This document shows positions 37,078-38,402 of a stretch of 38,402 bases of DNA, one piece after another (within the stretch, counting starts at the first letter, position 1; each line of letters begins with the position of its first letter). The stretch is from Acidobacterium sp. (GTDB lineage Bacteria > Acidobacteriota > Vicinamibacteria > Vicinamibacterales > UBA2999). The stretch spans positions 1-38,402 of the forward strand of contig NSIL01000024.1 in the NCBI GenBank assembly GCA_002737365.1, written 5' to 3'. The notes beneath the pieces were generated by a model, which saw only the letters and a program-made list of their open reading frames with translations, searched no databases and was not told the origin of the DNA. The position numbers and the translations under genes are program-made.

Positions 37078-37653
37078 CTACGCGCGCCCGGCAAATTCCC
37101 TGGTCTCCGTGTGGACCTTGATTTTCTCGCCTTCCTTGATGAACAACGGCACCTGAATTTCCATCCCGGTCTCGAGCACCGCGGGCTTGGTGACGCTGCC
37201 GCTGGCTGTGTTGCCGCGCACGCCCATCTCCGTCGACGCCACGATCAGCTCGACGTGTGGCGGAAAGACGATGCCGATCGGCTGGCCGTTGTAGCGATGA
37301 ATCTGCACTTCGACGTTATCGACCAGCAGGCCACGGTCGGCGCCGAGAATGTCGGTGCCGAGCGTCAGGGTCTCGAACGACGTCTGGTCCATGAAGTGGA
37401 AGCCGTCGCCGTCGGCGTAGGAGAAAGTCGCCGCCGACATCACCAGATCCGGTTCGGCGAACTTGTCGCCGGCCTTGAAGGTCTTGTCGAAGACGGCGCG
37501 GGTCAGGAGGTTGCGCATTTTCAGCCGCACGAGCGTCTGTCCGCCTCGCGCCGTAGGCTTGGAGACCTCCACGTCGAGACAGTGGTAGGGGGCGCTCTCG
37601 TATTCGAAATACGCCTTGCGCTTGATCTCAATCGCTTCAATCAGTGCGGCCAT
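37078..37653 (-). CDS. Elongation factor P-like protein (EF-P/EfpL)
   Basis: This 191-aa three-domain EF-P-like factor would relieve ribosome stalling at proline-rich or other hard sequences. The N-terminal KOW-like domain has LDVEVSKPTARGGQTLVRLK, with Arg at the loop tip (residue 36) in a PTARGG loop about two residues longer than EF-P's KPGKG loop, as in YeiP/EfpL proteins. The OB domains carry ADGDGFHFMDQTSFE and LETGMEIQVPLFIKEGEKIKV. With Arg at the tip it may need no lysylation or may use rhamnosylation; no modifying enzyme is in view. TATTAT (revcomp of 37660-37665) stands 6 nt before the ATG. The gene is divergent from the selenoprotein, with 17 bp between starts. Confidence 0.9.
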   Translation of the reverse strand: MAALIEAIEIKRKAYFEYESAPYHCLDVEVSKPTARGGQTLVRLKMRNLLTRAVFDKTFKAGDKFAEPDLVMSAATFSYADGDGFHFMDQTSFETLTLGTDILGADRGLLVDNVEVQIHRYNGQPIGIVFPPHVELIVASTEMGVRGNTASGSVTKPAVLETGMEIQVPLFIKEGEKIKVHTETREFAGRA

Positions 37654-37658
37654 GCTTC

Positions 37659-37665
37659 TATAATA
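37659..37665. promoter_or_regulatory. Overlapping divergent -10 boxes (EF-P-like and selenoprotein)
   Basis: On the plus strand TATAAT (37659-37664) is followed by 6 nt and the selenoprotein ATG (37671). On the minus strand TATTAT (37665-37660) is followed by 6 nt and the EF-P-like ATG (37653). The two boxes share five of seven positions, so both genes would be leaderless, and RNA polymerase could occupy only one promoter at a time. Confidence 0.55.
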
Positions 37666-37670
37666 CAGGC

Positions 37671-37901
37671 ATGAACCGCGTCCGCATCCGTTACTGCGAG
37701 ACTTGAAACTACCTGCCGCGCGCCGCCCGTGTGGCGGCGCTTGTCAAGCAGGAGGCAGGTCTCGTTGCCGTCCTTGAAGTGGGCGGGCGCGGCGAACTCA
37801 GTGTCTGGGTGAACGACCGCAAGGTCGCGCACAAGGACCACCAGGGGTTCCCGGCAGACGCCGCGCTGATGTCCGCCGTTCGCGCCGCAATGATCGAATG
37901 A
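37671..37901 (+). CDS. SelW/Rdx-type selenoprotein (in-frame TGA as selenocysteine)
   Basis: This 76-aa thioredoxin-fold protein of the SelT/SelW/SelH (Rdx) family is probably a cytosolic thiol-selenol redox protein. The frame runs MNRVRIRYCET, then TGA (37704-37706), then NYLPRAARVAALVKQEAG, continuing to the stop at 37899-37901. The family has YCxxC or YCxxU in the strand-turn-helix at this site, followed by NYLPRAA; here the TGA falls exactly on the second redox position, giving C9-E-T-U12. Later family features (GELSVWVNDRKVAHK, GFP) and normal length follow. A perfect hairpin at 37720-37740 fits a bacterial SECIS. TATAAT lies 6 nt before the ATG. The alternative is a nonsense-broken gene, but the precise position and hairpin make that unlikely. 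selA/B/C/D are not in the window. Confidence 0.85.
37720..37740 (+). promoter_or_regulatory. Candidate bacterial SECIS hairpin
   Basis: GCGCCGCC and GGCGGCGC form a perfect 8-bp stem with loop CGTGT. The loop begins 22 nt after the TGA (37704-37706) and has G as its second base. Distance, loop size and the early G match the general bacterial SECIS model, in which the hairpin lies inside the coding region just after the UGA. Confidence 0.65.
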
Positions 37902-37946
37902 GGCGTTAAGCCTATACTTGCCATGTATTTTCTGAAGGAGTCGTCC

Positions 37947-38402
37947 ATGGACTGGTCTCTGAATCCTCGGCGTCCTCTGTGGCTAGGGGTCGTGGTGTGG
38001 CTGCTGACGGCGGTCCTCTCAGCCCAGCAGAGTACTCTCACACCGGCGGAACAACAACGGCGCAAGGATCTCGAAGCTGAACTCCAGGACATCGCCGTCG
38101 TTGAACGGCGCGTGATGATTCCGATGAAAGACGGCGTGCGGCTGGCCACCGACATCTACCGGCCGAAGGCTGCGACCGGAAAATACCCGATCGTGTTCGT
38201 CAAGACGCCCTACAACTTCAACTTCTGGGATGTGCGCAACGGCGTGCCCGCGGACATGAGCACGATCCTGGCCGCGATCAAGCGCGGCTACGCCTATGTG
38301 GGGCAGAACGAACGCGGGCATTTCTACTCCGAAGGTAACTACGACATTCTCGGCGCGCCCATTACTGATGGCTACGAGACCGTGGACTACCTGACGAAGC
38401 AG
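37947..38402 (+). CDS. CocE/NonD family hydrolase, N-terminal part (runs off window)
   Basis: The first 152 residues of an exported alpha/beta hydrolase of the X-Pro dipeptidyl-peptidase S15/CocE class, open to the last base of the window. AAGGAG at 37935-37940 supports ATG 37947, where the signal sequence begins (LWLGVVVWLLTAVLSAQQ); an ATG at 37923 lies in frame upstream. The family opening is clear: VERRVMIPMKDGVRLATDIYRP, then PIVFVKTPYN, and QNERGHFYSEGNYD in place of the usual RGRGxSEG block. The catalytic Ser, Asp and His lie beyond the window, so activity cannot be judged. Confidence 0.88.
   Translation, partial: MDWSLNPRRPLWLGVVVWLLTAVLSAQQSTLTPAEQQRRKDLEAELQDIAVVERRVMIPMKDGVRLATDIYRPKAATGKYPIVFVKTPYNFNFWDVRNGVPADMSTILAAIKRGYAYVGQNERGHFYSEGNYDILGAPITDGYETVDYLTKQ

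Follow-up and report, generated by a model that had tools for sequence, protein, structure and literature searches.

The window analysed here, a stretch of 38,402 nucleotides from an Acidobacterium sp. genome, almost certainly contains a gene for a standard bacterial SelW-like selenoprotein, with selenocysteine (Sec) at position 12, a predicted Rdx fold and a probable thiol redox role. The TGA codon at this position is conserved, it is followed by a conserved hairpin, and the complete set of Sec genes is present in the same genome. The preliminary description of this DNA had judged Sec insertion to be likelier than a nonsense mutation, and this view is supported by the Sec machinery, the restriction of the homologous column to TGA or Cys codons, the kept reading frame and the conservation of the hairpin. 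The gene and its internal TGA are located as follows:

37671 to 37901, forward strand: SelW-like (Rdx family) selenoprotein gene, 76 amino acids plus stop, assigned by Pfam PF10262, AlphaFold and Foldseek.
37704 to 37706, forward strand: in-frame TGA as selenocysteine, U12 of the motif C9-E-T-U12, assigned by frame reading and by the homologous column (TGA or Cys).

The frame starts with the ATG at 37671-37673 and ends with the terminator TGA at 37899-37901, and its sole internal stop is the TGA at codon 12. Reading through this codon results in a product of 76 residues with U12 in the motif C9-E-T-U12-N-Y-L-P-R-A-A, which reaches 36.4 bits against the Pfam family PF10262 (Rdx / SelW; cut-off 22.6) over residues 3-71. 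Thus, both the proposed 76-amino-acid SelW/Rdx protein and the position of the TGA at the second redox residue of C-E-T-U were confirmed. The additional statement that standard ORF calling sees nothing here was slightly too strong: it holds for the full frame, which is absent from the mechanical ORF listing, but a truncated ORF of 56 amino acids (GTG 37731 to 37901) and an antisense ORF of 148 amino acids (37709-38155) are listed. An ordinary gene caller will therefore probably miss or truncate the SelW gene, which could be confirmed although the mechanical listing shortens its frame.

Among the NCBIfam models, the best match was obtained with NF041051 (SelTWH_Campy), a SelT/SelW/SelH family (seleno)protein, at 46.8 bits over residues 4-69, yet this likeness stays under the equivalog cut-off of 88; the score against TIGR02174 (SelT/SelW/SelH), for which U was entered as C, was also below its threshold (32.6 vs 34.2 bits), so that the protein was assigned to neither of these two models. 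The AlphaFold model, based on a 12-sequence alignment (mean pLDDT 93.1, pTM 0.81), predicts the order strand-helix-strand-strand-strand-helix, with the first strand at residues 4-8, C9 to U12 in the loop behind it and the first helix at residues 15-29. The product would hence be a small thioredoxin-like Rdx domain with the CxxU motif directly after the first strand. When this model was used in a Foldseek search, bacterial SelW-related structures came first (3dex, 2ojl, 2oka, 2fa8, 2p0g, 2obk), followed by MIEN1 (2ljk) and, lower in the list, by thioredoxins and mouse SelW (2npb); the top 21 rows have TM-scores (by query) of 0.78-0.87 at identities of 23-36%. SAV_2001 of Streptomyces avermitilis (3dex) shares the fold of the model with 2fa8, 2p0g, 2ojl, 2oka and 2obk, and differs from the protein described here in the aligned motif, which is C-T-Q-C in SAV_2001 and C-E-T-U in our SelW. 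The listed ORF starting at GTG 37731 also permits the reading that only the 56-amino-acid product is made, with the CxxU part upstream of it untranslated. In such a protein, the predicted fold would be missing its first strand and a part of its first helix, and the residues before the TGA are conserved, with I6, Y8 and C9 invariant in 18 rows; on these grounds the truncated product was rejected as extremely improbable.

The Sec reading of the full frame was tested at the homologous column. A first scan of genome contigs returned 11 relatives, all of them with TGA at the column (11/11). Matches were found in 10 of the 43 genomes of the window's own family, and each of these 10 has one with an internal TGA. 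In the phylum sample, 122 of 396 genomes have a SelW match, 114 with a TGA-type gene and 8 with the Cys type only, as found with a search profile that was built from Sec-type sequences and leans toward Sec-type matches. The profile alignment comprises 105 matches, of which two (L041 and L070) do not reach the disputed column; the remaining 103 carry TGA in 95 cases, TGC in seven and TGT in one, with TGA rows slightly favoured because the profile treats TGA as Cys. All 103 have a Cys three residues before the column. The distinct sequences among them amount to 93 TGA rows (over the full 60 nt) and 8 Cys rows, since some genes are present twice, for example L038 and L081, which are one gene entered twice. 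The eight Cys rows represent a distinct type with the motif CTQCRW.

For this alignment, 60 further stretches, mostly SelW matches, were fetched, and matches left unfetched were judged by the stop column of the phylum search, in which the second match of genome G131 shows a TAG besides the TGA. Loci from the machinery searches were excluded, as were repeat copies of a gene already included (L031-L034, L042, L044). Two loci, L079 and L080, count as TGA via the profile alignment only, as the genome search matched them downstream of the column. A protein search of plasmid records gave no match.

The gene thus has the in-frame TGA at a column that is Sec or Cys in homologues, as is expected of a selenoprotein, and the proposed check whether homologues have C or U there was answered by all 103 matches, with TGA in 95 and Cys in 8. 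Frame-disrupting changes downstream of the TGA in relatives, which had been named as evidence against the Sec reading, were looked for as well; the frame is kept, and in G003 the gene is split between two contig ends. These observations bear on the view that the gene is a pseudogene, i.e. a Cys-type Rdx gene that has acquired a nonsense mutation, which could appeal to the interrupted frame and to the existence of Cys relatives (8/103). The same TGA is, however, present in 95 of the 103 matches, distributed over many families of the phylum and also over records whose titles name other groups, the matches from the window's own family are TGA-type wherever the column is reached, and the hairpin behind the TGA shows paired synonymous changes (see below). 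A pseudogene is accordingly very improbable, and this explanation was rejected in view of the conservation of the TGA across families. The predominance of Sec-type genes among the SelW-like matches of the phylum sample also agrees with the scarcity of Cys homologues stated in the accessible parts of PMC1794560.

Several single loci deserve mention. L124 and L125 are TGA-type, and their codons after the UGA are similar to the stretch AAWMAQELL in the CTQCRW group of the Cys type; this likeness in sequence is a hint that Sec and Cys have been exchanged inside the group. The SelW of L013, from a record titled Klebsiella pneumoniae MAG, resembles those from records titled proteobacterium and Deltaproteobacteria, and the label is perhaps wrong. 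In the genome of the window itself, the gene analysed here is the only match of the Rdx Pfam model at E <= 0.01, and a more sensitive alignment search added one SelW-like fragment on contig C19 (L070:838-1278). This fragment starts with NYLPEASR and follows, in the same frame, a DegT/DnrJ aminotransferase that is truncated (PF01041, E 4.3e-17). The codon right before NYLP is AGA, neither TGA nor Cys, which counts against the Sec reading, though the locus looks broken; it does not reach the column and hence stands outside the 103, and it may have been left behind by recombination or result from a join in the assembly.

The window corresponds to contig C17 of a 3.05-Mb assembly with 54 contigs and an estimated completeness of 97.08%. 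The preliminary description had proposed to look for selA, selB, selC and selD in this genome, and all four were found. SelA scores 522 bits (cut-off 268), SelB 315 bits, or 343 with its other piece in frame (cut-off 242), SelD 344 bits (L029:1480-2526; cut-off 125), and tRNA-Sec 63.6 bits, with the anticodon UCA according to ARAGORN. The SelD gene has one in-frame TGA as well, which by sequence reading sits in a CAG-TGA motif near the start, presumably the usual Sec/Cys site of SelD. The SelD of this genome is likely a selenoprotein itself. The presence of tRNA-Sec with anticodon UCA is also relevant for the reading that UGA is decoded as a different amino acid (Trp or Cys), either through an altered code or through near-cognate read-through. 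Such a reading, in favour of which nothing specific was found, is countered further by the SelW gene itself, which ends with TGA (37899-37901), and by the homologous residue, which is Cys wherever it is not TGA; on all three grounds it was rejected and retains a negligible probability.

Decoding of the TGA as Sec is also in line with the distribution of the machinery in the phylum. In the sample of 396 genomes, tRNA-Sec (threshold E <= 1e-9) was detected in 102 of the 114 genomes with a TGA-type SelW, compared with 135 of the 282 others, which include the 8 genomes with Cys-type SelW only (Fisher p 9e-16, uncorrected for kinship). The exceptions are 12 of the 114 genomes without a tRNA-Sec match. 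In the family sample, tRNA-Sec occurs in 9 of the 10 SelW genomes and in 28 of 43 overall; the exception is G041, with neither a tRNA-Sec nor a SelA match and with SelB over the cut-off. The missing tRNA-Sec matches are likely owed to fragmented assemblies and stricter filters. Conversely, the sample of the window's genus comprises nine genomes, six with SelW, and the other three (G002, G006, G007) have tRNA-Sec and no SelW match. Hence, SelW may have been lost in these genomes while the Sec machinery stayed, with G002 being only 85% complete.

The second element expected of a bacterial selenoprotein gene, a SECIS hairpin that closely follows the UGA and has a G in its small apical loop, was found at the following position:

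37720 to 37740, forward strand: bacterial SECIS-like hairpin with an 8-bp stem and a 5-nt loop, assigned by its fold and by conservation and covariation in 90 and 17 sequences.

The arms span 37720-37727 and 37733-37740 and enclose the loop CGTGT (37728-37732) with the conserved G at 37729; the hairpin starts 13 nt downstream of the UGA, so that the perfect 8-bp hairpin at this distance with a CGTGT loop is exact as described before. The 45-nt stretch folds at -19.2 kcal/mol, which is only mildly unusual when compared with shuffled sequences (z -1.95, 11/200 as good). It is the comparative evidence, not the folding energy, that marks the hairpin as more than chance. In 90 distinct TGA sequences aligned in register, the five core pairs are formed in 95.3% of the cells and all five together in 77% of the sequences, against 21-62% of the cells when the partner is slid by -6, -3, -2, -1, +1, +2, +3 or +6 columns, and loop position 26 is G in 90/90. 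Three loci (L079, L080, L088) were left out of this count because their hairpin is out of register; by eye, the hairpin of L079 and L080 is apparently kept, at a larger distance from the UGA than elsewhere. Outer pairs are formed less consistently: among 93 rows, 18/36 is present in 62% and 17/37 in 35%.

Pairs 18/36, 21/33 and 24/30 join third codon positions. At pair 24/30, the 90 sequences have C-G in 79 cases, G-C in 11 and no mismatch, and five changes on each side were placed on the protein tree. Pair 21/33 is C-G in 70, T-A in 10, T-G in 6, G-C in 2, G-T in 1 and C-A in 1. A kinship-aware sign test gave a median p of 0.03 (range 0.016-0.22) for pair 21/33, and for pair 24/30 four of four supported pairs agree (p 0.125), which are too few to reach 0.05. 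In 17 distinct sequences, the covariation score was above that of shuffled alignments (0/500 as high), and the number of pairs that had changed on both sides was not (201/500 as high). RNAalifold on an 18-sequence alignment returned a different, weak helix of three pairs that is unlike the single-sequence fold, and pair counts on the named structure were therefore used instead.

A null model of synonymous codons, which is crude because the third-base weights come from only 60 nt per gene, gave mean MFE z values of -1.26 for the 93 Sec rows and -1.35 for the 8 Cys rows, so that folding energy does not separate the two types. Under the same null, 2.60 of the 3 third-third pairs are formed in Sec rows (1.20 expected) and 2.25 in Cys rows (1.06 expected). 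The inner four pairs also form in most of the 8 Cys rows; the inner helix alone thus cannot tell Sec from Cys, and the Cys rows do not provide a clean control. None of the 8 Cys rows forms the outer pairs 17/37, 19/35 or 20/34, but amino-acid differences at these positions make them a poor control there, too. The paired synonymous changes indicate that selection acts on the SECIS hairpin throughout the phylum.

Together, the machinery and the conservation of the hairpin suggest that SelB-GTP carrying Sec-tRNA(UCA) would bind this element 13 nt downstream of the UGA, and that selenocysteine would be inserted at position 12 in place of termination. By analogy to the family, the most likely role of the protein would be thiol-disulfide/selenenylsulfide exchange via a C9-U12 selenenylsulfide, and its redox partner might be a small thiol such as glutathione, or thioredoxin.

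The genomic neighbourhood of the SelW gene contains two further features:

37078 to 37653, reverse strand: paralogue of elongation factor P (EF-P), encoded divergently next to SelW, assigned by the Pfam domains EFP_N, EFP and Elong-fact-P_C.
37654 to 37670, no strand: 17-bp spacer between the start codons of SelW and EF-P, by direct reading.

The EF-P paralogue scores 186.2 bits against NF001810 (cut-off 161) and 184.0 bits against TIGR00038, just under the cut-off of 185.8, and a second EF-P is encoded on contig C1 of the same genome. The spacer has TATAAT 6 nt before the ATG of SelW and TATTAT on the other strand 6 nt before the ATG of EF-P, and might possibly represent a symmetric shared promoter for two leaderless mRNAs. 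The TATAAT spacer is common to L009, occurs as a variant in L037 and is absent from L010. A consensus scan of 37560-37760 for promoters and terminators found nothing and thus no full sigma-70 site.

When the EF-P was searched by tblastn in 36 SelW-bearing records, it was found in six. These six records represent the SelW loci of every SelW-bearing genome searched in the genus (G000, G001, G003, G004, G005, G008). EF-P is divergent from SelW in the window, L009, L010 and L037, lies just upstream in the same direction in L036 and just downstream in L011, and the gap is below 80 bp in each of the six loci. The remaining 30 records gave no EF-P match; a large part of them hold only about 1.5 kb of flank, and they include the single gene entered as L038 and L081, and L041, the second piece of the split G003 gene. 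The adjacency kept despite rearrangement hints at a link between SelW and EF-P in one genus only. Because it is retained in six genomes with varying order and orientation, the selenoprotein may act on the translation factor or be regulated with it; that SelW and the extra EF-P form a co-regulated pair in this genus is nevertheless a rather unlikely reading of the gene order. If true, such a pair could point, for example, to a redox control of translation under selenium supply.

A literature search, which covered sources in part, found no paper on this locus, and SelW was not found in the available main text of the deep-Sep paper (PMC12013277) or of a 2026 review (PMC13188914). The family as such is well documented in the accessible parts of two earlier studies. 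SelW-like proteins formed the largest of the selenoprotein families in the Sargasso Sea set, with 48 genes, and were described there as having an unclear function, with the CxxU motif suggesting a redox function and with an interaction of the protein with glutathione (PMC1088965). Ten bacterial SelW-like selenoproteins were listed in PMC1794560, where the family is among those for which very few, if any, Cys homologues occur in organisms that contain Sec, and where the Acidobacteria appear with 4 selenoproteins in 3 families. The gene described here shares the CxxU motif and the bacterial SECIS with a G in its small apical loop with the bacterial SelW-like family, as far as described in these sources; no feature distinguishing it from the family was found, so that only the locus is new, and no system of a new kind is revealed by it. 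Since bacterial SelW-like selenoproteins with a CxxU motif were published no later than 2005 (PMC1088965, PMC1794560, as available), the gene is a sound but ordinary addition to these long-known selenoproteins.
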